Of a DNA stretch of 54,292 nt, positions 8,594-45,466 are shown in pieces. A program made the translations under genes and the position numbers. Location: positions 1 to 54,292 of the forward strand of contig QKCN01000095.1 in assembly GCA_003245675.1 (NCBI GenBank), given 5' to 3'. How positions within the stretch are numbered: position 1 is the first letter of the stretch; each line of letters begins with the position of its first letter. The notes under the pieces were generated by a model. That model saw only the letters and a list, made by a program, of their open reading frames with translations. It was not told the DNA's origin and did not search any database. This DNA is from Bacteriovoracaceae bacterium (GTDB lineage Bacteria > Bdellovibrionota > Bacteriovoracia > Bacteriovoracales > Bacteriovoracaceae).

Positions 8594-9958
8594 ATGGATT
8601 TTAAATCATTCGACATTGACTCAAAATTTAAAAAGCGGATCATCTGGAACGTACTGATTTTCGTTGCAATTTTATGGACTGCAATAGAGGCTCCCTATAG
8701 TTTCGTCAAGGCTTTGCCTTCTAAAGAATCTTCCATGTGGTGGGATGGCATTCTCTCTTCTATTTTCGTTGTGGATGTTGTGTTACGCCTTATGGGAAAA
8801 CTCAGCATTAAGCCCGAAGAAGTCGCAGATTTCCCAGGCCTCAAGGGTCACACCAAACCTTATCACAAAACGATATGGTTCCCATTAGAACTCATCTCAT
8901 GTATCCCTTTTGAAATTATCTGCGGATTTTTTGGATTGCCTTACTATTTGCGCCTTATCAAAATGGCCCGTCTCTTTCGCGCTGTCACAGTTATCGGAAC
9001 AATTCGCACACTTGATACCATGGCCCTCCTCCCTCGCGGAATTAAATTAGGTGGCATGGCCATTGCCGCATTGATGTTTCTTCACTGGATTACCTGCGGC
9101 TGGATGTTGATTTATCCCGATCCAACCCTTGATGCAACTTCCTTTTACATAAAGGCCAATTACTGGGCCTTAACGACACTGACGACCATTGGCTACGGAG
9201 ATATTACCCCCACGACCAATGTGGGACGCATTTTTACGATGTTTATCATGGTGACGGGCGTTGCCATGTACGGTTTTATTATCGGTAACGTTTCTCGCCT
9301 TTTGATGCTCGCCGACCGACGCAAGGAGGCTCAAAAAGAAAAAATGGGTGAACTCAGTTTTCTCATGAAGCACTATCGCGTTCCCATGGGGCTACAAAAA
9401 CAAGTGTTCTCCTTCTATCATCACTTGCTCAGTAACCGCTTTATGGATGCAGAATCCAAGGTTCTAAGCGAACTCCCACCAGCTCTGCAAAACGAATTGC
9501 AAGTCTATATGAAAATGAAGTTGATCAGTAATATTCCGATCTTCGAAGGTTGCAAAGTTGTCGCTTTGAAGATGATTGCTTCTGCCCTTCAGCAAAACTT
9601 CTATACTCCCAATAGTCACATTATCCGTTCAGGTGAAGTTGGTGAGGAAATGTTTATCATTGGCCACGGCGAAGTTGATATTTTTATCAATGATAATTTG
9701 GTGACGACCTTAAAAGAAGGACAATTCTTTGGAGAGATTGCCCTTTTGGAAGAGACCACTCGCAGTGCTGATGTTAAGGCCAAAACCTATTGCGACCTCT
9801 ACAGCCTACATAAAGAGGAATTTTTAGACATTGTTGAAAAATTCCCTGAAGTAGGAGAAAGAGTCCGCAATATCTACAAGCGAAGAAGAAGTGACGCTCC
9901 CCGCAATAAACGTCCAATTTCCCGCGAGGTCACTGAAGACTTTAAAAAAGCTTCTTAA
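8594..9958 (+). CDS. voltage-gated-type K+ channel with C-terminal cyclic-nucleotide-binding domain
   Basis: 454 residues. Six membrane segments are followed by a cytoplasmic domain. An S4-like stretch (YLRLIKMARLFRAV) carries spaced Arg/Lys. The pore has the K+ selectivity filter TIGYGD (G200-Y201-G202-D203). The C-terminal cyclic-nucleotide-binding domain keeps the phosphate cassette FFGEIALLEETTRSADV with E381 and R390, the residues that contact the ribose and phosphate, so cAMP or cGMP binding is expected. The architecture is that of bacterial CNG/HCN-type channels. The start is set by GGGGTG 7 nt upstream. Gating ligand and physiological role are inferred. A class III cyclase is encoded at 42006-44228. 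Confidence 0.92.
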   Translation: MDFKSFDIDSKFKKRIIWNVLIFVAILWTAIEAPYSFVKALPSKESSMWWDGILSSIFVVDVVLRLMGKLSIKPEEVADFPGLKGHTKPYHKTIWFPLELISCIPFEIICGFFGLPYYLRLIKMARLFRAVTVIGTIRTLDTMALLPRGIKLGGMAIAALMFLHWITCGWMLIYPDPTLDATSFYIKANYWALTTLTTIGYGDITPTTNVGRIFTMFIMVTGVAMYGFIIGNVSRLLMLADRRKEAQKEKMGELSFLMKHYRVPMGLQKQVFSFYHHLLSNRFMDAESKVLSELPPALQNELQVYMKMKLISNIPIFEGCKVVALKMIASALQQNFYTPNSHIIRSGEVGEEMFIIGHGEVDIFINDNLVTTLKEGQFFGEIALLEETTRSADVKAKTYCDLYSLHKEEFLDIVEKFPEVGERVRNIYKRRRSDAPRNKRPISREVTEDFKKAS

Positions 9959-26314: not shown

Positions 26315-29300
26315 ATGAACAAAATGAACTGGACCAGAATATTAACTCTTTTCATGCTATGGGGATTTATCTCCCTCATGCTTGTTGCCTGTGTTCCACA
26401 GCAAGGAACCTCCGGTGGAACTCGCACTACTGCCTCCTCTGATTCTAGTGAAGAAGACGAAGATACAGATACAACGATTGTTAATACACAGAGCTTATTT
26501 TTCTACACTCAGGGTACTTCCGCTCTTGATGTTACTGTCGATGCGGCGGAGACTGATAATATTTACCTTCGTGGAAGTTCCATTGAAAAACTTTTTAAAA
26601 TGGAACTCAAATCTGGATCGACTTACACCCTTCCCGATTTTACCAATGAAGAATTCTGCTTTCGTATGGCCTTCAAAATTTCTTCTAGTCTCACAAGAGA
26701 ATTACGAGTACGTGCCGTTCCCGTTTCTCTTTATGTAGATGGTGTCCGCGAAAACTTTTTTCGAATTGAACTCTCCAACAAAGAAGCAAATGAAAGCCTT
26801 TGCTCCTCTGTCCCAAGTTCTGGAATTACCAGTGCTAATATCAAGTACACAACAGAAGAGCTCTGCGCAAGTGGAGAATGTAGTGGGACTTTTGCAACTT
26901 TAAACGATGATCAAGAAACTCCTGTAAAAGCAATTTATATGATGAGTTCGCTTGCCACCCTCATTGAAACAGCTGAGACATTAAATGACGCCGAAGTTTT
27001 AGCTAGCGAATTAACGGCACCTGACCTAACAACATTGACCTTAAGAGTGAATCCAGAAAACGACACTGTTATTTCCTCTTGTTCTGACTCAGCCTGCCAA
27101 GCTGCAGGTTATAGCTGCTGCCTCAGTGGTCAATGCGTACAAGCAGGGGCAGAAAGGCCTTCTGCCAGCAACGATGAGCTTTTCACAAGTATCATCAGGG
27201 GAATAGTATCAGCTCAACCTTCACTCTATCGCGATTATCCACAATATTACTATGTCTGCGAAAACTACGTTGACCCAACTCCCACCGCCACAGCAACGAC
27301 AGATCCCGTAGCTGAAGCTGATCAGCTTCTTTGGGATTCTGCCGTTTATTATCTCTATTCCACTTGTAATGGTGATGATGCTTTTAATGCTGATCTTGTA
27401 GCTTGTAGCTCTGGGGAATCCCTGCCTCTCGTTTCGGGAGTTAGCATCAGCTACTCCAATGCACCGGCCTTAACAGATGGCACAGTCCTTACGGGAGATA
27501 AGGCCAGAGAAGACCTACTGACACGCTGTAATTGTACAACAGGTGCCGATAATTGTCCGACCTACACCTATGTTCCGGTCTATAATCAGTACAATAAAAT
27601 TGCTTCTTTTGAATGTGTTGCCCAAGTTGTTGAAGCAGACCCTACTCCTTTTCAGTCGCTCAATGTTGAAGTCTCTGCTCGAGCAGCGCCACATCGCTTT
27701 TATCGCGCAGACACAGGGAAAGCAGTTGATGACATTGAAGATCTAAAGGGAACCAGTGTTCAACCAGAAGGAGACGCCTTCTCTTATAATGGCGGTTATC
27801 TACTTTCCCCCAATCAAGAAAAACTCAGCATGAATGCCATTTTGGGGCAGTTCTCTGTCGAACTCGACAAAGCACTCCCCGCCAAAGAAATCGGTGTTCA
27901 GCACGATACAACTTATGTCATCCGCGTAAATTCTGCTTACTACACTCCTTGTACTTCATGTGCCAAGGATTCTTGGTTCCAGATGTTCTCGGCCCATCCG
28001 CCTTCGACAATGGGAAAAGGCTTACAAGCAATTGGTCACACCGTAAGTCGTGATGCCATTTCAACAAATACAACAAATGGAAACTATGAAGATACTATTT
28101 TTGGAAGGGCCTGCTGGCTACCTCCAACCATGGTGCCCTTCACTCATTCAGATCAAGACCAGAATGATGCTGTTTTCAGCAATCTTGCAGAGCAAAGACA
28201 ACAACGCCTAAAAGCGCAGGCTGCTCTTTACGACAACGGATACCAACGCGACTGGTTTGGCTTTAATAAAGGTTCCTTGATTGGATCATTCGACGGCGTG
28301 ACTTGGTTCTCCATCGGGAAAGCTCGCCGTGTAAAATCCACATCTACCAAACTTTTCTTGGCAATTAATGCTCCTTTTGCAGACCTTGCCACCAACACTA
28401 GTTTTGCCATTGAGGTGATTGAAGAAGGCGATACAGAGGATGAAGTTGCTGCGAACTATGATTATGACCCTTCGCTCAACTACAATGCCCCAGAGCAAAC
28501 CGAAGGTGCTTCTTGCCAAAAATATCATCAGTGTTCTAATGACATTGATTGTGTAACCCGATTGGGCTGGGAATACTCTTGTATTGATGTCTACAAATAC
28601 AAAACCCTATGGCCGAAATTTGACTCTAATGCCAATGAGCTTGTAGGAAGCTACAATAATTATAAATTCCCTCAAATCCTTCAAGTCAAAGACTATCTTC
28701 CTGGAGATAGCTCAAAACGCTGCGTTTATAGAGGAGCTGGTGCCCCTTGCGTTCGCAATGTGAATGCTTTTTCCGACGATACGCGGGAGAAGTTTTTCAC
28801 TTGTGCCCCTAACTTTTACTGCGAGCTCCCTAGTCAAAAGGCTTTTAATGGAAGGATCATGCGTCATGTGGGAAGCCTTGATGGCATTCTATTAGAAGAG
28901 TCTCAGCCACATCTTTATGGCCAAGATGCCAATGTTTTAGGTCGCCCCGAATACTACATTATGCCTTCATGGCATGTTAATGCTGTTGCTCTAGATAGTC
29001 TCTTTGGAATGACAAAAGTGTTGGAAGACAATGCTGCTTGGCTAAAGGAAGGTGGCTATATTAGCGAAGACCCAGTGATGGGAATATGCCGCCCAGGTAA
29101 GGCCATTACAACAACGGCAACGACAACAGGGGCTCAAGACCGACATAAAACGAAAGATTCTAACTACAGGACAGATTATATTTCACAAATTGGATCTTGT
29201 GACGTGAACTCAAGTTCTCGCACACTGATGATCAATAACTGCCCTGCTTTCGATATGGACACCGACAGTGAAAACTATGGCAATTTACTCAATTTTGATA

Positions 29301-31816
29301 ATTTTAACACAACAAGTATAGGGATGCAGAATACCTGTGGTGGCTCGTCATATATGGAAGATAAAACCAACACGACTTTCTCTAACTTAGAGAAGAAATC
29401 GCTCTATTTGGCAGCAGATACCACCAATGAAGGCCCCATTTTTAGCCCAGCACTTGCCCTTAATGCCTGCTTTAGAAAAGCAGGAGCAGTTTGCCATACC
29501 AACCTTGACTGCTCTCCTAATGTTATGCATTCAGAGCAGGCATTGTATTTTACCAAAGAGGATTTTGGCGGAAGAGAAGAAGAGAAAAAATATTGGGAAG
29601 AAAATTTGATTTGTGGCCAGACAGAACCTGTTCCTTATTCAAGTCTCAGTATCTTCACCACTTACAATATGAGTAATAATCGCTGCTGCCGCGAGACAGG
29701 AAAAGATCTCACTCTTTATACTAGAACTCCTGAGCGTAGCGCTCTAAGTTTCTTAACTAGTACAAGCTACGATGCAGATCTAGACAATCGCTATAGCCGT
29801 TATTCTGTTTTGAGTTCTCTAGGAAGTGGTCTTTATCCTTATCCAACCACAAATACCTCAACCCAAAGCCTCCTAAAATACCAGTGGAATACATTGGGGA
29901 GAACTGCTCAAAAATCCTGTTGTGGCGGTGGCTATATTAGAAAATTTGCCGATGACTCTCATGACTGGACTGTGCGCGACCGCTTCAAATTTGATATCAC
30001 CAACTTCAGATGTTTGAATTACCCTGATGGATTAGCATTGCAAGAATCAGGTAGTGTTTACGTCGATCGCGATAGCAGTGATGGTTATCACTTCCCTAGC
30101 TTTACGCGTGATTCTTCCAACTATTGTAAACAGCTCTGGCCAACAACTGATGGCCAAAATGCCTGTGTCCAATTGATGTATCAAGATATTGAAGATGCTT
30201 CTAATCCTGCGGAACCGATTAATAACTGGACCTATAGCGGATCTACGCCCCTCAAGTCTTTTGATATCTATACAAGTAGTTTTTTTACCACTTATAATTT
30301 TGGCTATTACGCGACTCAAAGTCCCTACAATATGATTACGGCGCAAAATATCAATGATATCTATGATATGAGATTTTTATCATTTGTTCCTTTCCCTCCA
30401 GTTCCCGTTCCTGGCTATCCTTCCGACTTTACCCAAGCGACCTTGACCGCCGACGAATCCGCTGTTTCAGTAGCTGGTACAGGTGGAGACAGTATCGAAA
30501 CATTCAAATACTATATCCCTTCTTATGTTCGCATTAAGAGTTCAGCTTGGGGAGCAGATGGTCAGAGGCTTCTTGATCCAACAAGTTTTGCAGTTATGTT
30601 TATTTACAGAAAAACACCTGATGACTTTAATGCCAGCAGTGGAGATCGAGTACTTCCAACCCCAAAAGAAACAAGTAGCGTCCGCCTAGTCAACTGTTGG
30701 CAAACAAACAAAGCAGGTATGGACCAAGTAAAGCTAAATGACTCTTGCTTTGACTACTCTGCAGTGACGAGTGGAACTTGTAGTGGCATAAGCAGAAACC
30801 TAAGCAGTATTGAGCTGATTGGAGATTCTGACTCCAACCATATTTATTGCTGGTATGACTACGATGAAAGCAATGACTCCGTTGAAATCGTTTATCGCCA
30901 TCACCCCACTGACCCTTTTTCGGGGCTCTCAGACACAGGAGTTCTGGACCTCGCCTCTTTTATTTTCAGAGTTACCCCTTATTCTTTAAATGGAGGAGAC
31001 AAAGGGTTCTATCCAGGAGATAGCAATTTTTATCTAGAGCGCTTATCTAAACTTGAACTACTGGGCATTCCACAAGTTCCTCAGGCTCCTGTTTATTGTA
31101 ACTCTAGCCAAAACAAATTGATTCCTAACCTCTATACAATCGACACGCGAACAGAGGCTCAAAACAATGATTGGTTTACCAACTACTTATCGACAACGAA
31201 CGGCTATGACAATATCGGAAGTGCTCTCAGAGGAGACCTTATTGATTCCTCTGTCGACAAAATCTTTAGCGAAGAGACATATACTTGCTGTGTAGAGCTC
31301 GGAGAGAAAGTCTCTGACGGAGATTCCTCTCGCTGCTGTAGTAATTATGCGGTTGATGACAAGTGTATGCTCCCCCCCGGCACAGACCTAAATGTCTATT
31401 TTAATCCCTACGTTTCCAGTGAAGCTTTGCGCTCTAGTAACGGCTTTGTATTACCTAAAGTAGTCAGTGGTGTGGTTAGCTACGATGGCAATAAATCTTT
31501 TGATGAAGTTACCGGTGAACCAACCTATGATGCTCGTGAAACACTAATGGTCCTTGGCCAAAAGTATTGTGAAAATGGGACGCGCGCTGGTGGAGCTTTT
31601 GGCTACTACCCTGGAGAACCTTTGGCCGTGAGCATTTTTGAACCGTCGGTAACACCAGATCCTGATATTAAGGCCCTCGCTCGTTGGAGTATTCTCGACT
31701 CCTACACTGATAATGAAGTCGATGAAGACGGCAACCCTATTCGTGGCGTCTGGGCATTTGAAAAAGGTTTTCGCTGGAACAATCACATTTACTGTGATGA
31801 TCCTGATCCAACTTAA
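26315..31816 (+). CDS. giant cysteine-rich lipoprotein, unknown function
   Basis: 1833 residues. An N-terminal hydrophobic segment ends in the lipobox MLVAC (C26), followed by a Ser/Thr and then Asp/Glu-rich linker (about 30-50), suggesting a tethered surface protein. Many Cys occur in clusters such as CSDSACQAAGYSCC, RCNCTTGADNC, CQKYHQCSNDIDC, RKAGAVCHTNLDC and TCCVELGEK, recalling small disulfide-knit modules, with Tyr/Asn-rich beta-type sequence between them. Extensive oxidative folding would be needed; the TlpA-like lipoprotein at 3092 is a possible helper (inference). No catalytic motif was recognised. The 3' stop interlocks by 4 nt with the HAD nucleotidase. A surface adhesin or prey-contact protein is one possibility, not shown. 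Confidence 0.85.
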   Translation: MNKMNWTRILTLFMLWGFISLMLVACVPQQGTSGGTRTTASSDSSEEDEDTDTTIVNTQSLFFYTQGTSALDVTVDAAETDNIYLRGSSIEKLFKMELKSGSTYTLPDFTNEEFCFRMAFKISSSLTRELRVRAVPVSLYVDGVRENFFRIELSNKEANESLCSSVPSSGITSANIKYTTEELCASGECSGTFATLNDDQETPVKAIYMMSSLATLIETAETLNDAEVLASELTAPDLTTLTLRVNPENDTVISSCSDSACQAAGYSCCLSGQCVQAGAERPSASNDELFTSIIRGIVSAQPSLYRDYPQYYYVCENYVDPTPTATATTDPVAEADQLLWDSAVYYLYSTCNGDDAFNADLVACSSGESLPLVSGVSISYSNAPALTDGTVLTGDKAREDLLTRCNCTTGADNCPTYTYVPVYNQYNKIASFECVAQVVEADPTPFQSLNVEVSARAAPHRFYRADTGKAVDDIEDLKGTSVQPEGDAFSYNGGYLLSPNQEKLSMNAILGQFSVELDKALPAKEIGVQHDTTYVIRVNSAYYTPCTSCAKDSWFQMFSAHPPSTMGKGLQAIGHTVSRDAISTNTTNGNYEDTIFGRACWLPPTMVPFTHSDQDQNDAVFSNLAEQRQQRLKAQAALYDNGYQRDWFGFNKGSLIGSFDGVTWFSIGKARRVKSTSTKLFLAINAPFADLATNTSFAIEVIEEGDTEDEVAANYDYDPSLNYNAPEQTEGASCQKYHQCSNDIDCVTRLGWEYSCIDVYKYKTLWPKFDSNANELVGSYNNYKFPQILQVKDYLPGDSSKRCVYRGAGAPCVRNVNAFSDDTREKFFTCAPNFYCELPSQKAFNGRIMRHVGSLDGILLEESQPHLYGQDANVLGRPEYYIMPSWHVNAVALDSLFGMTKVLEDNAAWLKEGGYISEDPVMGICRPGKAITTTATTTGAQDRHKTKDSNYRTDYISQIGSCDVNSSSRTLMINNCPAFDMDTDSENYGNLLNFDNFNTTSIGMQNTCGGSSYMEDKTNTTFSNLEKKSLYLAADTTNEGPIFSPALALNACFRKAGAVCHTNLDCSPNVMHSEQALYFTKEDFGGREEEKKYWEENLICGQTEPVPYSSLSIFTTYNMSNNRCCRETGKDLTLYTRTPERSALSFLTSTSYDADLDNRYSRYSVLSSLGSGLYPYPTTNTSTQSLLKYQWNTLGRTAQKSCCGGGYIRKFADDSHDWTVRDRFKFDITNFRCLNYPDGLALQESGSVYVDRDSSDGYHFPSFTRDSSNYCKQLWPTTDGQNACVQLMYQDIEDASNPAEPINNWTYSGSTPLKSFDIYTSSFFTTYNFGYYATQSPYNMITAQNINDIYDMRFLSFVPFPPVPVPGYPSDFTQATLTADESAVSVAGTGGDSIETFKYYIPSYVRIKSSAWGADGQRLLDPTSFAVMFIYRKTPDDFNASSGDRVLPTPKETSSVRLVNCWQTNKAGMDQVKLNDSCFDYSAVTSGTCSGISRNLSSIELIGDSDSNHIYCWYDYDESNDSVEIVYRHHPTDPFSGLSDTGVLDLASFIFRVTPYSLNGGDKGFYPGDSNFYLERLSKLELLGIPQVPQAPVYCNSSQNKLIPNLYTIDTRTEAQNNDWFTNYLSTTNGYDNIGSALRGDLIDSSVDKIFSEETYTCCVELGEKVSDGDSSRCCSNYAVDDKCMLPPGTDLNVYFNPYVSSEALRSSNGFVLPKVVSGVVSYDGNKSFDEVTGEPTYDARETLMVLGQKYCENGTRAGGAFGYYPGEPLAVSIFEPSVTPDPDIKALARWSILDSYTDNEVDEDGNPIRGVWAFEKGFRWNNHIYCDDPDPT

Positions 31817-38403: not shown

Positions 38404-39204
38404 ATGGTGCGTCAATTGATTTTAATATTATCTTTTTCATTACTGCAAGCTTGCGGCAACCCCCTTAAGGGAACAAGTGCCAGTAGCTCAGGTATTCAGG
38501 CTTTTGGTGTTTCTGATTCCGAACTAACTACTTATTGGGATAGTTCTCAGTTTCCCTTAACGATACAGATTGATCCCTATTTTGAAGAAGATGAATACAA
38601 TGGAATTACTGAAATCGGAGATGTCTGGAATCAGGCGGCAGGAAAAAGTCTGCTAAAATTTCAACGAGCATCGGACTCTCTGCAATATGTTGACCTTAAT
38701 AGCTATCGCGATAGTTCTCTGGGAATTCATTTTATGGAGCAATGGTTTGACGATCTGTCGCCTCATGCTCTGGCCGTCACTCAATTCTATGGTCAGAAAA
38801 TAGTCAAAGACGGAACGGAAATGATCAAAATTATCCATGCAGATATTCTCATTAATGGTGAATACTATGACTTTTCCATAACCTCTGCATCAGGAAGATA
38901 TGATCTCTTGTCAGTGGTTTTACATGAACTAGGTCACTTTTTGGGATTAAAGCACGACTACAGCGAAAGTTCTGTCATGTTGCCCGTACTCTCAATCGAA
39001 CAGCAAAAAAGAGTTTTGGCCACTAACGACAAGGCTGATCTTCTAAAACTCTACCCACAAGCAACTACACAAAGCCTTGCAATCAAATCAGTGTCAGCCT
39101 CTCAAATATCCGACTCAAAGAGTCCAGAACTAGTCGTCGGAGTTTATGAAATCTCTCCCACTGGCGAAAGTTATAAACAAAGAAAAATTATCCCCTCTCC
39201 CTAA
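38404..39204 (+). CDS. matrixin-like zinc metalloprotease lipoprotein
   Basis: 266 residues. Lipobox LLQAC (C17). The metzincin motif is complete: H174-E175-L-G-H178-F-L-G-L-K-H184-D185, with a Met-turn candidate at SVM (M192). The upstream segment (DVWNQAAGKSLLKF) matches the start of matrixin catalytic domains. A surface-tethered protease acting on proteins outside the inner membrane is expected. There is no ribosome site before the ATG. The gap to the divergent coiled-coil protein gene is 76 bp; the FecR operon begins 74 nt downstream. The substrate is unknown. Confidence 0.88.
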   Translation: MVRQLILILSFSLLQACGNPLKGTSASSSGIQAFGVSDSELTTYWDSSQFPLTIQIDPYFEEDEYNGITEIGDVWNQAAGKSLLKFQRASDSLQYVDLNSYRDSSLGIHFMEQWFDDLSPHALAVTQFYGQKIVKDGTEMIKIIHADILINGEYYDFSITSASGRYDLLSVVLHELGHFLGLKHDYSESSVMLPVLSIEQQKRVLATNDKADLLKLYPQATTQSLAIKSVSASQISDSKSPELVVGVYEISPTGESYKQRKIIPSP

Positions 39205-39278: not shown

Positions 39279-40394
39279 ATGGCCGGCCAAAAATTATCCT
39301 TTTTGATACTTGCCCTTTTATTTGCAAGTCCTTCACTGCAAGCAAAAATTGCAAAAGTCATAATGGTTAGAGGAGAGGTCTACGTCAGTGAAAATGGAAA
39401 TCAAGTTCCTCTGAAAAATGGGATATGGCTAGAAGAAGGAGATAGGATAACAACTCTTGATAAAAGTTTTGTCCGCCTCCAATTTATAGATAAGTCAACG
39501 ATGAATGTGGGCAGCCAGTCTCAAATTGAAGTTAAAACATTTAACGATAACTCAAAAAGTCTCATCAATATTATCAAAGGAAAAATTCGAGCAACCGTCA
39601 CCAAAGATGCACTAGCTCGTCAAGAAAACAAGATGATAATAGCCACTAAAACGGCAGCCATGGGAATTCGTGGAACAGAATTTATCGTCAGCTACAATGA
39701 GAAAGAAAATGAAACAGCTCTACTCACCCTGAAGGGCCTAGTTGCCATGGCCCCGATTGAAGCAAATGACAATATCCGCAGTGCTACAAACCTTATTAAT
39801 CATTTAAACACAAAAGCGCTGGAGATTCCCGCGGGACTGGCATCTCGTTTTAATCCAAACGAAAAAAATATGGACGTCAAAAAAATTGATCCTATTCAGC
39901 GCTACCAACTTGGAAAAGCAGAAAACAAAAATGCCATTGATAAACTAGCAGACTCAAAGGGGAAAGTGAGGGAGGTTCTACTTCCAGGTACTTCTAAACA
40001 AGGAATGGTAAAAGATGCTCCAACGGTCTCGAAAATTGAACAAGAAATAGAGAAAAAAGATAGTAAAAAAATTAAAGAGCTAGAACAACAAATTCCTCAA
40101 CCCAAATACAAACTCGATGAAAATACTTTTCACCTTGATCTCGAAAAAAACAAAATTGAAAAAACAGAAGACCAAAGAGAGAGAATCCGCAAACCATTTT
40201 CAGATCGCCGTTCCAAGTTACCTGGGCTCCCTCCCTCTGAAGACAGGCAAGGGTTGCTCTGCAGTGGCAACCTCTGCAACGTTCCAGATTCTCTGACGGA
40301 CTATGCTGAATATCGAGAAGAAATAGAGGATGCTGCTCTTGTGAAAATCCTTCCAAATTCTAAAGTGAAATTTAATATTCAACCTCGTCAATAA
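39279..40394 (+). CDS. FecR-domain periplasmic protein
   Basis: 371 residues. Signal peptide (MAGQKLSFLILALLFASPSLQA), then a FecR domain (about 25-150): VRGEVYVSENGNQVPLKNGIWLEEGDRI, FIDKSTMNVGSQSQIEV and MGIRGTEFIVSY. The C-terminal 200 residues are Lys/Glu-rich and probably extended or helical, with one Cys pair (LLCSGNLCNVP). Such stand-alone FecR proteins lack the anti-sigma helix of E. coli FecR and occur with CHASE2 cyclases and TPR/barrel proteins in many bacteria. AGGGAG lies 7 nt before the ATG. The next gene follows after 13 nt. Confidence 0.9.
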   Translation: MAGQKLSFLILALLFASPSLQAKIAKVIMVRGEVYVSENGNQVPLKNGIWLEEGDRITTLDKSFVRLQFIDKSTMNVGSQSQIEVKTFNDNSKSLINIIKGKIRATVTKDALARQENKMIIATKTAAMGIRGTEFIVSYNEKENETALLTLKGLVAMAPIEANDNIRSATNLINHLNTKALEIPAGLASRFNPNEKNMDVKKIDPIQRYQLGKAENKNAIDKLADSKGKVREVLLPGTSKQGMVKDAPTVSKIEQEIEKKDSKKIKELEQQIPQPKYKLDENTFHLDLEKNKIEKTEDQRERIRKPFSDRRSKLPGLPPSEDRQGLLCSGNLCNVPDSLTDYAEYREEIEDAALVKILPNSKVKFNIQPRQ

Positions 40395-40407
40395 AGTAGG
40401 CTAAAGC

Positions 40408-41991
40408 ATGAAATCAATTGTTAAAATAGTATCGCTCATTGCTTTATATTTGGTTCTCGTAAGCCAGACACATGCAACTCTTCCAGAAGCTCTTGTCGCC
40501 TATCGCAGCGGGGATTACGCCACAGCAATTAAAAAGATCAAAGAGGTTCAAAAAGAGAATGCGACAAATGCAACTTTGCACTACTGGCTAGGGGTTATTT
40601 ATAATCGAGTTCAAGAGTTCGAATTGGCTAAAGATGAATTGACCAAGGCTCTTGAACTAAAATTTGATGCTCGCGACCTTTATTACGAATTAGCTCAAGC
40701 GTTATATGCTCTCGACAAAATAGACTTGGCCCGCAAGTCTTTTCTCATATCAACGAAAAAAGGATACATGAGAGGACAATCGCTTTATTATGCCGCTTAC
40801 ATATCACAACTAAAAAATGAAATCCCCCCTGCGATCTCTTATTATCAACAACTCTACAATTTGCCTTTTGAAGAAAGAAAAGATGTTTTTCAAGCAGCTA
40901 TGCTTCAATTGGGTGAACTGTATTATACCCAAGCCCTTAAGCATCCCAGCACTCAAAAAATGGTTGAGCGCTACGTCCTACCGCAACTAGAGCTTGCCTA
41001 CCGTCTTGATTCCAAGTCTCAATTGGCTGCAGAGATTGAAGATCGTATTTATCAAATCAAGATTGACCACGGAATTTCGAGCACGAAAATGCGCAATGGC
41101 CGCCCTATTCCTCGCCAAAAATGGGAAAATAAGGTCTATGCAGAAATCACCTACGATAGCAATGTCGTCTATGAAGCAGATGACGCCATTGAAAAAGCCC
41201 AAAATAAAAGTTCTATGATTTCCAAATTTGATCTTCTCAGCACTTATCGAGAAACTCTTGGCAACTCCGTATGGGTTATTCCCGGAATCAATCTCAATGG
41301 GAGCTACTATTCCAATCGAGATGAATCAGGTGTCTACCAAAATGATGGGTTTGAAATTCAGCCTTCACTGCGAACGTCCTTTGAGCACACGGTAGGAGCA
41401 GAGATGGCGGCCCTGTCCTTGGACCTTGACTATGTACATGCACAAAAAGATGTCTATGCTGATGGTACAGTAAGAACGGATTCAAATGACTACTCCATCT
41501 CACTAGGAGAGCAACTTAAATTTTTACCTCAAGGACCCACAACATTTAAGCTAAGGTACAAGTCAAGCAACTCCTATGATCCAACACTTGACTCCCAGAC
41601 AACAGGATTCTCTTTTGATCAGAATTTTTCTTTTAGCAGTGGAAATATGTTCATTTTTATTGCTGCTCTCGATATGACAAAATACAGCCAGTCGCCAGAG
41701 CAGGATTCTCGCTCTCTTAGCATGGTAGGAAGCTACATCATGCCTCGCTGGGGGACTCGTTTTGTTCTTCCAACATTTTCTCTGGCATATACAATGACAG
41801 ATCCACAAGAACAAAAAGAAGAAAGAGGATATGAGCACTCTTTTACACCTGAATTTCATCTTTCCTATATGTTCACTCCATCCCTCAAGCTGCGTTGGGC
41901 GGTGAACTACACTAAAAAAATATCAAAAGATGAAGAAAGTTATGCCTATCAAAAATGGACGACAGGTTTTCGTCTCATTCACGCATTTTAA
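40408..41991 (+). CDS. TPR protein with C-terminal outer-membrane beta-barrel
   Basis: 527 residues. Signal peptide (MKSIVKIVSLIALYLVLVSQTHA). TPR repeats at about 28-210 (YRSGDYATAIKKIKEVQKEN, LGVIYNRVQEFELAKDEL and others) would lie in the periplasm. From about residue 235 to the end come alternating strands rich in Tyr/Ser/Asp, ending in FRLIHAF with the terminal Phe of barrel proteins. The TPR-plus-barrel layout resembles Slam-type or DUF560 proteins in outline only. It lies between the FecR gene (13 nt) and the cyclase gene (14 nt), so the three products probably work together across the envelope. Confidence 0.82.
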   Translation: MKSIVKIVSLIALYLVLVSQTHATLPEALVAYRSGDYATAIKKIKEVQKENATNATLHYWLGVIYNRVQEFELAKDELTKALELKFDARDLYYELAQALYALDKIDLARKSFLISTKKGYMRGQSLYYAAYISQLKNEIPPAISYYQQLYNLPFEERKDVFQAAMLQLGELYYTQALKHPSTQKMVERYVLPQLELAYRLDSKSQLAAEIEDRIYQIKIDHGISSTKMRNGRPIPRQKWENKVYAEITYDSNVVYEADDAIEKAQNKSSMISKFDLLSTYRETLGNSVWVIPGINLNGSYYSNRDESGVYQNDGFEIQPSLRTSFEHTVGAEMAALSLDLDYVHAQKDVYADGTVRTDSNDYSISLGEQLKFLPQGPTTFKLRYKSSNSYDPTLDSQTTGFSFDQNFSFSSGNMFIFIAALDMTKYSQSPEQDSRSLSMVGSYIMPRWGTRFVLPTFSLAYTMTDPQEQKEERGYEHSFTPEFHLSYMFTPSLKLRWAVNYTKKISKDEESYAYQKWTTGFRLIHAF

Positions 41992-42005
41992 AAAGGAAAA
42001 AAGAC

Positions 42006-44228
42006 ATGAAATTATCTGAAAAAATAATAAAGTATTCTGTTGTCGTTTTTCTCTTCTTGTTTTGTGTCCTATCAATCTATCTCACCTCTCTTGCTCGTGG
42101 AGCAAGTCTTGTTGGTTTTACTGAGACAATTTCAAAATACGCCTCAATGCTAGAAGACCAATTTTATGACTTCCGCATGAAAAACAATAGAGCAACAGAT
42201 CAGATGGCCAAGCAAATTGCCCTGGCCCATATTGATGACAATTCTCTTGCGAAAATTGGACGTTGGCCTTGGAGTCGAACTGTTTGGGTCAAGGTGTTGC
42301 ACAAATTGGACAAATTTGGGGCTAAAGTTATTACAAGTGATATTTTCTTTTCTGAACCAGAAGAAGTTTGTAATGCAAGCTCTCCAGATCTTGACCTTGC
42401 TGCGGCCATTAATAAATTCAAACAAAATGGAGAAGGGCGAGAGGTAATTCTACCCTATTCCCTCGCCGCCATGAATGATCCCATGATGGAAGAAGTTCCA
42501 GGGGACCTTTTCAATTGGGTATTAGATAGTGAAGTCCAAGGTAGCGTCACAGGCTATGACAATAATATTTACCAATCAAAGATTAATAGCACAACATTCC
42601 CAGTACCCACTCTTTTGGAGACAACGCCAGGCTTGGGGTTTCTCAATACCTACGCTAACCTCGATGGGGTGTTTCGCCACTTCCCTGTTCTCGCAAACGT
42701 GGACACTCTCTATTTCCCCTCCCTTGCTCTTATGAGCTATGAGGCTTTTTCTAAAGATAAATCAAAGCTTAGTATTGATGCTTACGGCAATGTCACTTTT
42801 AATGTTAAATCTGGCTCTTTCCAACTCAACAAAGCAGGTGAAACAAAAATTCGCTATTTTGGTGATGCAAGTCAATTTCCTGAAATGAGTATCTGGAATA
42901 TTCTCAATGCATCAGATGATGACCCTAAAGCAAAAGCTCTTTTTGAGAACAAAGTTGTTTTTCTTGCTACAACAGCGATGGGCGCACACGACTTAAGGCA
43001 TACCCCCCTTGATGCACAAATGCCTGGAGTGTTCATTCACATGAATCTACTTCACATGTTACTTGAAGGATATTTCTTCAAAAATTTTGATGACTCTATT
43101 CTCTTTTCTTTGGCCCTCCTTGTGCTGGGGCTAACTATCTTGCTTTTGGTACAGGCGCGGGCCAATGCCATTTTAGATCTTGTGACATTATTGGCCCTAT
43201 TTGTTGCCAGCTACTATATTGATGTAAAATTGTTTCTCCCCGATGGTTATGAAATTCGTCTGCTATTTTGCTATATCTGTTTTTTGGGAACCTATTCTTG
43301 GATTACTTTTTATCAATTCTACAAAACCAGTAAAGAGAAAGCACATATTCGCGGAGCCTTTGCCCGCTATGTTGCTCCTGCCATTGTGAATCAAATGCTA
43401 GAAAATCCAGACAGACTAACTTTAGGTGGTGAGAAAAAAGATATCACCTGCATTTTTTCCGATGTCCGTGATTTTACGTCCATCAGCGAAAAGCTAACTC
43501 CAACTCAGCTTTCGACGGCCCTTAATATTTACATGACCAAAATGACTAACATCTTATTCGATAATCTGGGAACTCTCGACAAATACATTGGTGATGCGAT
43601 TGTCGGCTACTGGGGAGCCCCTGTTGATGATCCAAATCACGCTTACTACGCAATCAAGGGAGCGGTTGCCATGGTTGAGGCCCTACCAGAGGTTAATGCC
43701 GAGCTCATTCCGATGGGGATTCCTGAATTTAAGTTTGGAATTGGTTTAAATTCCGGAGAATGTTCTCTGGGAAATATGGGGTCCGATCGCATTTTTTCTT
43801 ATACTGCCCTTGGCGATAATATGAACTTAGGGGCCCGTTTGGAGGGGCTGACTAAGTTTTATGGAGTACAACTGATGATCTCTGAGTTTACTCATGCGAA
43901 ATTAAGTGATGAACAACAAGCTGAATTCACCTTTCGAAAACTAGACTGTGTACGGGTAAAGGGCAAAGAAAAGCCTGTGGTTATTTATGAAGTTTTGCAT
44001 CCTAAGCATCATTTAATCAATGATCCAGAAGCCTTAGACGTATTTCATAATGCTTTTGACCTTTATACTCAACAAGAATTCAATAAGGCCATTGAGCTTC
44101 TTAATCCATATAAAGAAAAATATCCTGAAGATAAAAGCTTTAAACGCTTAATTGAAAATTGCCAAGAATACTTAGAGGTTCCACCTCCGCCGGGCTGGGA
44201 TGGAGTAACAGTTTATAAAACGAAATAG
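42006..44228 (+). CDS. CHASE2-domain class III adenylate cyclase
   Basis: 740 residues. One N-terminal membrane helix, a periplasmic CHASE2 domain (about 35-350; IDDNSLAKIGRWPWSRTVW, TSDIFFSEPE), three helices (about 360-445) and a class III catalytic domain (about 475-650). Catalytic residues are visible: metal Asp D486 and D530, purine-selecting K526 and T600 (a Lys/Thr pair typical of adenylate cyclases), N607 and R611. It should make cAMP in response to a periplasmic signal. The true start is the ATG at 42006 with AAAAGG upstream; earlier in-frame codons lie inside the preceding gene. The C-terminus after 660 holds one TPR-like repeat. Confidence 0.93.
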   Translation: MKLSEKIIKYSVVVFLFLFCVLSIYLTSLARGASLVGFTETISKYASMLEDQFYDFRMKNNRATDQMAKQIALAHIDDNSLAKIGRWPWSRTVWVKVLHKLDKFGAKVITSDIFFSEPEEVCNASSPDLDLAAAINKFKQNGEGREVILPYSLAAMNDPMMEEVPGDLFNWVLDSEVQGSVTGYDNNIYQSKINSTTFPVPTLLETTPGLGFLNTYANLDGVFRHFPVLANVDTLYFPSLALMSYEAFSKDKSKLSIDAYGNVTFNVKSGSFQLNKAGETKIRYFGDASQFPEMSIWNILNASDDDPKAKALFENKVVFLATTAMGAHDLRHTPLDAQMPGVFIHMNLLHMLLEGYFFKNFDDSILFSLALLVLGLTILLLVQARANAILDLVTLLALFVASYYIDVKLFLPDGYEIRLLFCYICFLGTYSWITFYQFYKTSKEKAHIRGAFARYVAPAIVNQMLENPDRLTLGGEKKDITCIFSDVRDFTSISEKLTPTQLSTALNIYMTKMTNILFDNLGTLDKYIGDAIVGYWGAPVDDPNHAYYAIKGAVAMVEALPEVNAELIPMGIPEFKFGIGLNSGECSLGNMGSDRIFSYTALGDNMNLGARLEGLTKFYGVQLMISEFTHAKLSDEQQAEFTFRKLDCVRVKGKEKPVVIYEVLHPKHHLINDPEALDVFHNAFDLYTQQEFNKAIELLNPYKEKYPEDKSFKRLIENCQEYLEVPPPPGWDGVTVYKTK

Positions 44229-44310: not shown

Positions 44311-44991
44311 TTGTTTGCAATTGAAGAAAGATGGGTACAGGGCCTACCACCTGAGCTTATCAAAAAAATTCTCGAAAAAACAAAAGAGTTATTGGAGCAT
44401 TATCTCAATCGCAAAGAGATTCAAGGATACACAAAGCTCCTTCACGACAAAGGCGCTCAATATTTGGAATGCACTGTTTTGTCTGTATTCTACTCTCTTT
44501 TAATATGTGAAAAATTAGATTGGTGGACAAGACCAACTCTGGAAAAAGTCTGTCTAGGCTGTATTTTGCAGGATATTGACGCACTTAATTTGCAAAATCT
44601 TCCCCCGCTGGCAGAGGAAGATGAGGTCGATCCAAGCTCTCCAGAACTAAGTGCATGGCAAAAGCACCCTCTTGCAGCAGCAGATAAGGCCTCTTCCTTT
44701 AATTTTTGCAATGAATCGGTTCGCCAAATAATTATTCAACATCACGAAAATTTTGATGGCTCAGGTTTCCCTCGTCATATTGCAGGCCTAAAGATCTACC
44801 CCCTGGCCCGTATCGTTCGCTTGGCGACATATTTATCCAAAGCAATCATTTTTGAAAACTATAGTCTCAAAACATCAGTACAGCAGTTACTCAAAAATAC
44901 TCAAAAAATCAATTCATTTGATCCACAGCTTATCAAGCAGATCATATCTGCCTTGACGGGGAAAAGCGTGGAAGAAAAAGAAGGGGCATAA
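44311..44991 (+). CDS. degenerate HD-GYP-like protein
   Basis: 226 residues. The C-terminal half keeps QKHPLAAADKA and HHENFDGSGFPRHIAGLKIYPLARIVRLATYL, very close to HD-GYP phosphodiesterases. The defining HD pair is Gln-Asp (LQDIDAL) and the upstream metal-ligand His is also absent, so catalysis is doubtful. The start is TTG at 44311 with GGGTGA upstream. It lies 82 nt after the cyclase gene and 1 nt before a receiver gene, a pairing that repeats the 103-1857 locus. TATAAT at 44275-44280, without a good -35, could start a separate transcript. Confidence 0.72.
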   Translation: MFAIEERWVQGLPPELIKKILEKTKELLEHYLNRKEIQGYTKLLHDKGAQYLECTVLSVFYSLLICEKLDWWTRPTLEKVCLGCILQDIDALNLQNLPPLAEEDEVDPSSPELSAWQKHPLAAADKASSFNFCNESVRQIIIQHHENFDGSGFPRHIAGLKIYPLARIVRLATYLSKAIIFENYSLKTSVQQLLKNTQKINSFDPQLIKQIISALTGKSVEEKEGA

Positions 44992-44992
44992 C

Positions 44993-45466
44993 ATGAACGA
45001 GCAATCAACATCTAGGGGGCAATTACTTATCGTCGACGACGAAGAAGAACTGCTCTCATTACTAGAAGAAACTTTAGCTAACCCAAACATTGAAATTCAC
45101 ACAGCACTCAATGGCAAAGAGGGATTGGAAGTTTTATCCACCCAAAACATTGACTGCGTGATCTCAGATATTAGCATGCCAATTATGGATGGTGTTGAAT
45201 TCATAAAAAAAGCAAGGGCCGAAAATCACGAAATGCCTTTTATCTTTTTTACGGGACATGGCAATGAATCAATTCTCGACGAAGTCTCGCGCTATGGTGC
45301 TTTTGATTTCCTCAACAAACCAGGCTTGGAAGATTTAGAAGCCTCTGTGGAGAGAGCAATTAAAGCTGTTAAACAGGATGGCTTTCAAGTGTCTAAACAC
45401 GAGGGGCTCAACGAAGAGGAACGCCGCGAATACATCAACATATTAGAAAAAAACAAGAAAGATTAA
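44993..45466 (+). CDS. single-domain response regulator
   Basis: 157 residues. Receiver domain with acidic pair D15-D16, phosphoacceptor D59 in ISDISMP, T87 and K109 in LNKPG, all present. A C-terminal charged helix (about 120-157) follows but no DNA-binding or enzymatic output domain. Only one nucleotide separates its ATG from the stop of the degenerate HD-GYP gene, so the two are probably coupled and may form one signalling unit. AAGGGG precedes the ATG. A strong terminator follows. Confidence 0.92.
   Translation: MNEQSTSRGQLLIVDDEEELLSLLEETLANPNIEIHTALNGKEGLEVLSTQNIDCVISDISMPIMDGVEFIKKARAENHEMPFIFFTGHGNESILDEVSRYGAFDFLNKPGLEDLEASVERAIKAVKQDGFQVSKHEGLNEEERREYINILEKNKKD

Follow-up and report, generated by a model that had tools for sequence, protein, structure and literature searches.

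NsrA, a barrel protein of the outer membrane in Sinorhizobium meliloti, and CyaK, the CHASE2 cyclase encoded next to it, are reported to be both needed for the perception of a signal that is extracellular and for which the ribosomal protein uL2 is a candidate (PMC7529298, PMC13001267). NsrA consists of a FecR domain (residues 66-160), a TPR region (378-590) and then a barrel, all within a single chain of 1190 amino acids, and nsrA overlaps cyaK by one base. Combinations of some of these domains have been described in other bacteria. A cluster of CHASE2-cyclase, FecR, TPR and phosphodiesterase genes is present in Campylobacterota (PMC9239204); in Burkholderia, biofilm formation has been linked to the BiofilmReg operon, which encodes a CHASE2 kinase and a FecR protein with LysM (PMC5192318); and in magnetotactic bacteria, the gene of the periplasmic TPR-containing protein MtxA (mtxA) is followed by the gene of a CHASE2 adenylate cyclase (PMC4439547).

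The present analysis concerns a stretch of 54,292 nucleotides (hereinafter, the window) from a Bacteriovoracaceae bacterium, the genome assembly of which amounts to 2.59 Mb in 124 contigs and is 87.9% complete. A first-pass annotation of this DNA had pointed out three genes, 13-14 nt apart, and had proposed that the barrel protein senses something outside the cell and that the FecR and TPR parts pass it on to the CHASE2 domain of a cyclase. Open reading frames and Pfam domains bear out the gene trio: a FecR-domain protein (39279..40394, 371 aa, identified by a match to PF04773 and hydropathy), a protein combining TPR with a predicted outer-membrane beta-barrel (40408..41991, 527 aa, with a signal peptide and a C-terminal Phe) and a predicted CHASE2-sensor class III adenylate cyclase (42006..44228, 740 aa, identified by Pfam and residue alignment) are all encoded on the plus strand, with intergenic gaps of 13 and 14 nt.

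The domain order, FecR-TPR-barrel-CHASE2 cyclase, is that of NsrA-CyaK (and CyaD1/CyaD2) of S. meliloti, with the difference that FecR, TPR and barrel, which are joined in one chain in NsrA, are here divided between two proteins, and the barrel is smaller. The barrel-to-cAMP idea, then, is not new in kind, NsrA-CyaK being its fused form; the first-pass annotation called the mechanism not worked out, which holds for its details, yet a barrel-to-cyclase relay has already been published for this one relative. In plasmid loci of Shinella and Paracoccus (L075, L076), the TPR-barrel, FecR and CHASE2 cyclase genes lie in a row, as they do here, but the FecR gene is the second one, and its product carries a Slam-cargo-like C-terminal domain (detected below the cut-off) that is absent from the window FecR protein. 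The Campylobacterota cluster, which was compared by description only, includes a cAMP phosphodiesterase, whereas none is recognisable at the window trio (PMC9239204). In BiofilmReg, a FecR protein likewise adjoins a CHASE2 sensor, but the output is through a histidine kinase and a response regulator, and there is no barrel (PMC5192318); the mtxA-CHASE2 cyclase pair resembles the trio in gene succession but neither a barrel nor a FecR domain has been described for it (PMC4439547).

The FecR protein starts with a signal peptide (39279..39344, plus strand; recognised by hydropathy, with cleavage after ...SLQA placed by eye), which is followed by the FecR domain (residues 55-155, 39441..39743; Pfam E-value 1.7e-14) that has an RGT motif in common with NsrA. 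The profile of the window FecR family matches NsrA residues 60-161 with an E-value of 3.8e-6, so the FecR cores of the two proteins are homologous. The sole hydrophobic segment found by hydropathy analysis comprises residues 6-25; because there is no transmembrane segment besides the signal peptide, the protein is predicted to be soluble in the periplasm. The juxtaposition of a FecR domain with an outer-membrane protein would fit also canonical FecI-FecR-FecA surface signalling through an ECF sigma factor, but Pfam and hydropathy revealed neither a cytoplasmic anti-sigma domain nor a transmembrane helix in the window FecR protein, and the genes next to the trio include neither a sigma factor nor a TonB-dependent receptor; we ruled out this reading, the probability of which appears next to negligible, on the basis of domain content and neighbours.

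The second protein of the trio also has a signal peptide, with no further hydrophobic segment. Its periplasmic TPR/helical region (approximately residues 27-220, 40486..41067, plus strand) includes a TPR_16 match (Pfam, 5.8e-7) and is helical in a low-confidence model; the predicted beta-barrel occupies approximately residues 240-527 (41125..41988). The barrel part has no Pfam match, and a search of the PDB with the profile of the barrel family retrieved TPR structures only. An AlphaFold2 run on two input sequences yielded a model of low confidence (pLDDT 46.7, pTM 0.34) in which the barrel was not formed, and in an hhalign comparison of the barrel family with NsrA, which was not significant, the TPR region alone was aligned, and weakly. 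We infer that the C-terminal half is an outer-membrane barrel because it is strand-rich in the alignment, because the last residue is aromatic, as in 31 of the 40 barrel homologues (26 F and 5 Y), and because the two genes resemble NsrA. The layout of TPR followed by a barrel is typical also of exopolysaccharide export porins of the PgaA/BcsC/PelB type, for which the FecR protein could be an accessory. This common layout apart, there are no polysaccharide synthase genes nearby and no match to exopolysaccharide porins in Pfam or the PDB, and the porin reading, which we consider highly improbable, was likewise dismissed on domain content and neighbours.

The cyclase contains an N-terminal transmembrane segment, a CHASE2 domain predicted to be periplasmic (residues 46-375, 42141..43130, plus strand; PF05226, 6.3e-46), additional hydrophobic segments after CHASE2 detected by hydropathy, and a catalytic domain (residues 477-657, 43434..43976; Guanylate_cyc, PF00211, 3.6e-18). 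CyaK is about 28% identical to it over 82% of its length. An earlier in-frame ATG at 41955, which would make the gene overlap the barrel gene, was rejected as the start codon: homology with the relatives begins at residue 5-6 of the protein initiated at 42006. The catalytic residues reported in the first-pass annotation are indeed retained, as seen in the alignment with the solved CyaB and CyaC: D486 and D530 (metal binding), K526 and T600 (purine recognition), N607 and R611 (transition state). Across 32 aligned cyclases, all of these other than T600 are identical, and T600 is replaced, by Ser, in CyaK only. The K/T purine pair predicts that the enzyme is an adenylate rather than a guanylate cyclase.

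Taken with the precedent of NsrA-CyaK, these features make it, in our assessment, reasonably probable that the trio is an outer-membrane-to-cAMP signalling relay of the same type, except that two proteins make up the receptor. Under this scheme, the TPR/barrel protein would be embedded in the outer membrane and extend a TPR arm into the periplasm, where it would hold the soluble FecR protein, most likely via the conserved C-terminal strand of the latter. Together, the two proteins would act on CHASE2 so as to change its state, and the cyclase in the inner membrane would respond by making cAMP, with a surface signal as the presumed input. The observed components are the gene order, the co-conservation, the FecR-barrel fusions of relatives, the integrity of the cyclase active site and the presence of cNMP-binding proteins in the genome; the outer-membrane location, the docking of the tail, the contact of FecR/TPR with CHASE2 and the surface origin of the signal are putative components of the scheme.

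The relay scheme had been made dependent on co-conservation of the three genes, and this aspect held: when each trio protein was searched against 129 genomes of the class and the matches compared by coordinates, the adjacent, co-oriented trio was found in 46 of the 129. Among the matches listed (149 for the barrel), FecR is directly upstream of the barrel on the same strand in 125 pairs, and the cyclase follows the barrel in 52 cases (within 80 nt, by hit edges, in 49); of 53 close barrel-cyclase pairs in this set, a single one deviates from the tandem arrangement. The trio is real, conserved and functionally coherent. Barrel and cyclase also co-occur at the level of gene content, with 102 genomes encoding both, 8 the cyclase only, 8 the barrel only and 11 neither (p=1e-6); for genomes that are at least 90% complete, the respective numbers are 65, 3, 1 and 8 (p=7e-8), although these p-values overstate independence given that most absences fall into a handful of genera and of reduced genomes. 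Among complete genomes, G040 has the barrel only, and G096 and G077 have the cyclase only. CHASE2 proteins as such are encoded in 128 of the 129 genomes, and most of the genomes that lack both barrel and cyclase retain one CHASE2 match of a weaker-scoring kind; the copy of this kind examined in the host genome encodes a 635-aa histidine kinase. Because this weaker-scoring protein persists where barrel and cyclase are lost, the presence of the barrel correlates with the cyclase specifically and not with CHASE2 generally.

Linkage is far from universal. Among the matches listed, 79 FecR-barrel pairs have no adjacent cyclase, and roughly one in two genomes encoding both the FecR-barrel pair and the cyclase has them unlinked. 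This pattern would be expected if the cyclase sensed a periplasmic ligand of its own via CHASE2 and were merely co-regulated with an outer-membrane pair of another function, and CHASE2 domains are indeed found also in kinases, and in cyclases without barrels (PMC10581220). We nevertheless regard such independent sensing as distinctly unlikely: independent gene orders reunite the three genes, their presence is correlated, and NsrA-CyaK provides a tested precedent that speaks against an own-ligand interpretation. In a mirror-tree comparison, the distances for FecR and barrel correlated with those for the CHASE2 half of the cyclase (partial r of 0.65 and 0.72, respectively, after hemF) more strongly than with those for the catalytic half (0.40 and 0.39), but DUF3943 and a small outer-membrane-like protein encoded beside the trio in relatives track the CHASE2 half about equally (0.60-0.64), and because other envelope genes of the locus show such similar values, we set this signal aside as specific evidence.

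In most of the linked relatives examined, the trio belongs to a larger locus with the order DUF3943, small outer-membrane-like protein, in some cases an ArsC-like protein, FecR, barrel and cyclase, and with a divergent hemF; the hemF, DUF3943, small outer-membrane-like and ArsC-like genes are conserved in loci L097-L116, and the small outer-membrane-like protein was not found in the genome to which the window belongs. In one genome, DUF3943 and the small outer-membrane-like protein are followed by the cyclase, without FecR and barrel (L083), and in one genome by FecR and barrel, without the cyclase (L091), arrangements that tie both halves of the trio to the same upstream genes. The order cyclase-FecR-barrel, in a genome from another family of the phylum (G187, locus L132), indicates that the association of the three genes survives rearrangement. 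Outside the class, the full-length barrel was found in at least 9 genomes among the matches listed, G187 being one of them. The trees of the barrel (constructed without some minus-strand loci) and of the cyclase agree: in each, the sister group of the window protein, with starred support, is a clade whose members carry the FecR-barrel pair far from the cyclase; the simplest reading would be that an ancestral trio split in the sister clade and that both halves were kept.

The class includes single-chain proteins of 656-687 aa, described here for the first time in this class, in which the FecR domain is N-terminal and a barrel of the same family is C-terminal (six checked loci, L140-L142 and L144-L146); no TPR is recognisable in these fusions. 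Another new observation pertains to the C-terminus of the unfused FecR proteins. Among the homologues, the FecR domain is followed by a variable and often Pro-rich linker, after which the last 10-12 residues form a conserved motif of alternating character, resembling a beta-strand (for example, TKVKFNIN). This motif is found within the last 15 amino acids of 32 of the 39 FecR homologues, compared to 8% of shuffled tails. In the window FecR protein, the linker is shortened and the tail, NSKVKFNIQPRQ (40356..40391, plus strand), is retained. The fusions, in which FecR and barrel are covalently linked, lead us to hypothesise that, in the split form, docking is through the tail, which is, at present, a candidate for this role.

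What the FecR-barrel pair does where the cyclase is elsewhere, or absent, is suggested by an alternative neighbour. Lipoproteins of a family that shares an N-terminal Cys-rich domain, consisting of a lipobox at C19 and five further invariant Cys, with no good Pfam match, are encoded beside FecR-barrel pairs without a linked cyclase (locus L094 of the host genome G000, contig C34, 231-7780; also L143, L133-L136 and L087-L090). The C-terminal regions of these proteins vary, with Kelch in some, and Big_1 and DUF1554 in a protein that may be a distant member. Of the 149 barrel matches listed, 96 lack a linked cyclase, and 18 of these have such a gene within 5 kb, as against none of the 53 cyclase-linked ones; conversely, 19 of the 150 listed lipoprotein matches are located no more than 5 kb from a barrel, with fewer than one expected. 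Several of these genes are 24-74 nt downstream of the barrel, in the slot used by the cyclase elsewhere, and both forms coexist in the host genome, in which a second FecR-barrel pair (contig C34) is followed, 24 nt after the barrel (hit to hit), by a lipoprotein gene. The family has 1-7 copies in 109 of the 129 genomes, and its distribution over the class is associated with that of the barrel (p=6e-9). The FecR-barrel pair is, we conclude, a portable module, the neighbour of which is either the cyclase or this previously undescribed lipoprotein family, an arrangement that is new here. The window itself encodes a giant Cys-rich lipoprotein of 1833 aa (26315-31816, plus strand) with a lipobox-like LVAC sequence, which is outside the FecR-barrel-linked family.

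Given the 79 pairs without an adjacent cyclase and the 18 units beside lipoproteins, the barrel may not be dedicated to sensing for the cyclase; it may instead act in export or assembly, or as a lipoprotein co-receptor. The main rival to the relay, which we view as a minority possibility that deserves to be taken seriously, is accordingly worded: FecR and the TPR-barrel would form a machine of the outer membrane whose primary task is to export large lipoproteins or to display them, with CHASE2, in the cyclase-linked form, reporting engagement of the machine or regulating the supply of cargo. The neighbourhood and co-occurrence data on the lipoproteins fit such a machine, as do the layout of periplasmic TPR followed by a barrel of about 290 residues, which is like that of Slam/type XI systems, and the sub-threshold C-terminal match of the Shinella and Paracoccus FecR protein to Slam-dependent surface lipoproteins. 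Several observations point the other way. The TPR/barrel protein gave no match to PF04575 (SlipAM, the Slam barrel) in the Pfam scan, and there was none in the host genome at E<=10, the latter being a weak argument against Slam because the control was silent as well; the lipoproteins have their conserved domain at the N-terminus, in contrast to known Slam cargo; Pfam reveals in the window FecR protein no C-terminal TbpB-like barrel of the kind found in Slam cargo; and NsrA, the nearest studied relative, acts as a receptor. A broader version, in which FecR and TPR/barrel are a general outer-membrane device for handling or displaying this large family of lipoproteins, with the CHASE2 cyclase as an exchangeable reporter, seems to us rather unlikely; if it were true, cAMP would reflect the condition of the lipoprotein machinery at the cell surface. 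The relay proposed in the first-pass annotation is, on balance, partly supported, by co-conservation and the NsrA-CyaK precedent, and is qualified by the cyclase-free pairs and the lipoprotein-side barrels.

These findings bear on the question of what CHASE2 domains sense: in this lineage, the data suggest periplasmic or outer-membrane proteins, and not just a small ligand. With a defined pair of partners, a short C-terminal tail and natural fusions, the contact between them can be tested directly. That the same FecR-barrel pair can have either a cyclase gene or a lipoprotein gene as its neighbour points to a modular system of the envelope that extends across Bacteriovoracia and related bacteria.

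Scans for promoters and terminators gave results at chance level. Directly upstream of the FecR gene, 74 nt away and on the same strand, is a gene for an M10-type metallopeptidase, probably a lipoprotein (38404-39204), which was not seen beside the other loci examined. Downstream of the cyclase (44311-45466, plus strand) are the genes, 1 nt apart, of a degenerate HD-GYP-like protein, which matches HD_5 and in which the first HD motif is not intact, and of a lone receiver domain; neither is conserved beside the cyclase in the relatives examined. With respect to potential targets of cyclic nucleotides, the host genome contains at least 6 frames with cNMP-binding domains, and the window encodes a protein of 454 aa (8594-9958, plus strand) that combines a potassium-channel filter sequence, TTIGYGD, with a C-terminal cNMP-binding domain and is, judging by this domain composition, a possible cAMP or cGMP effector.
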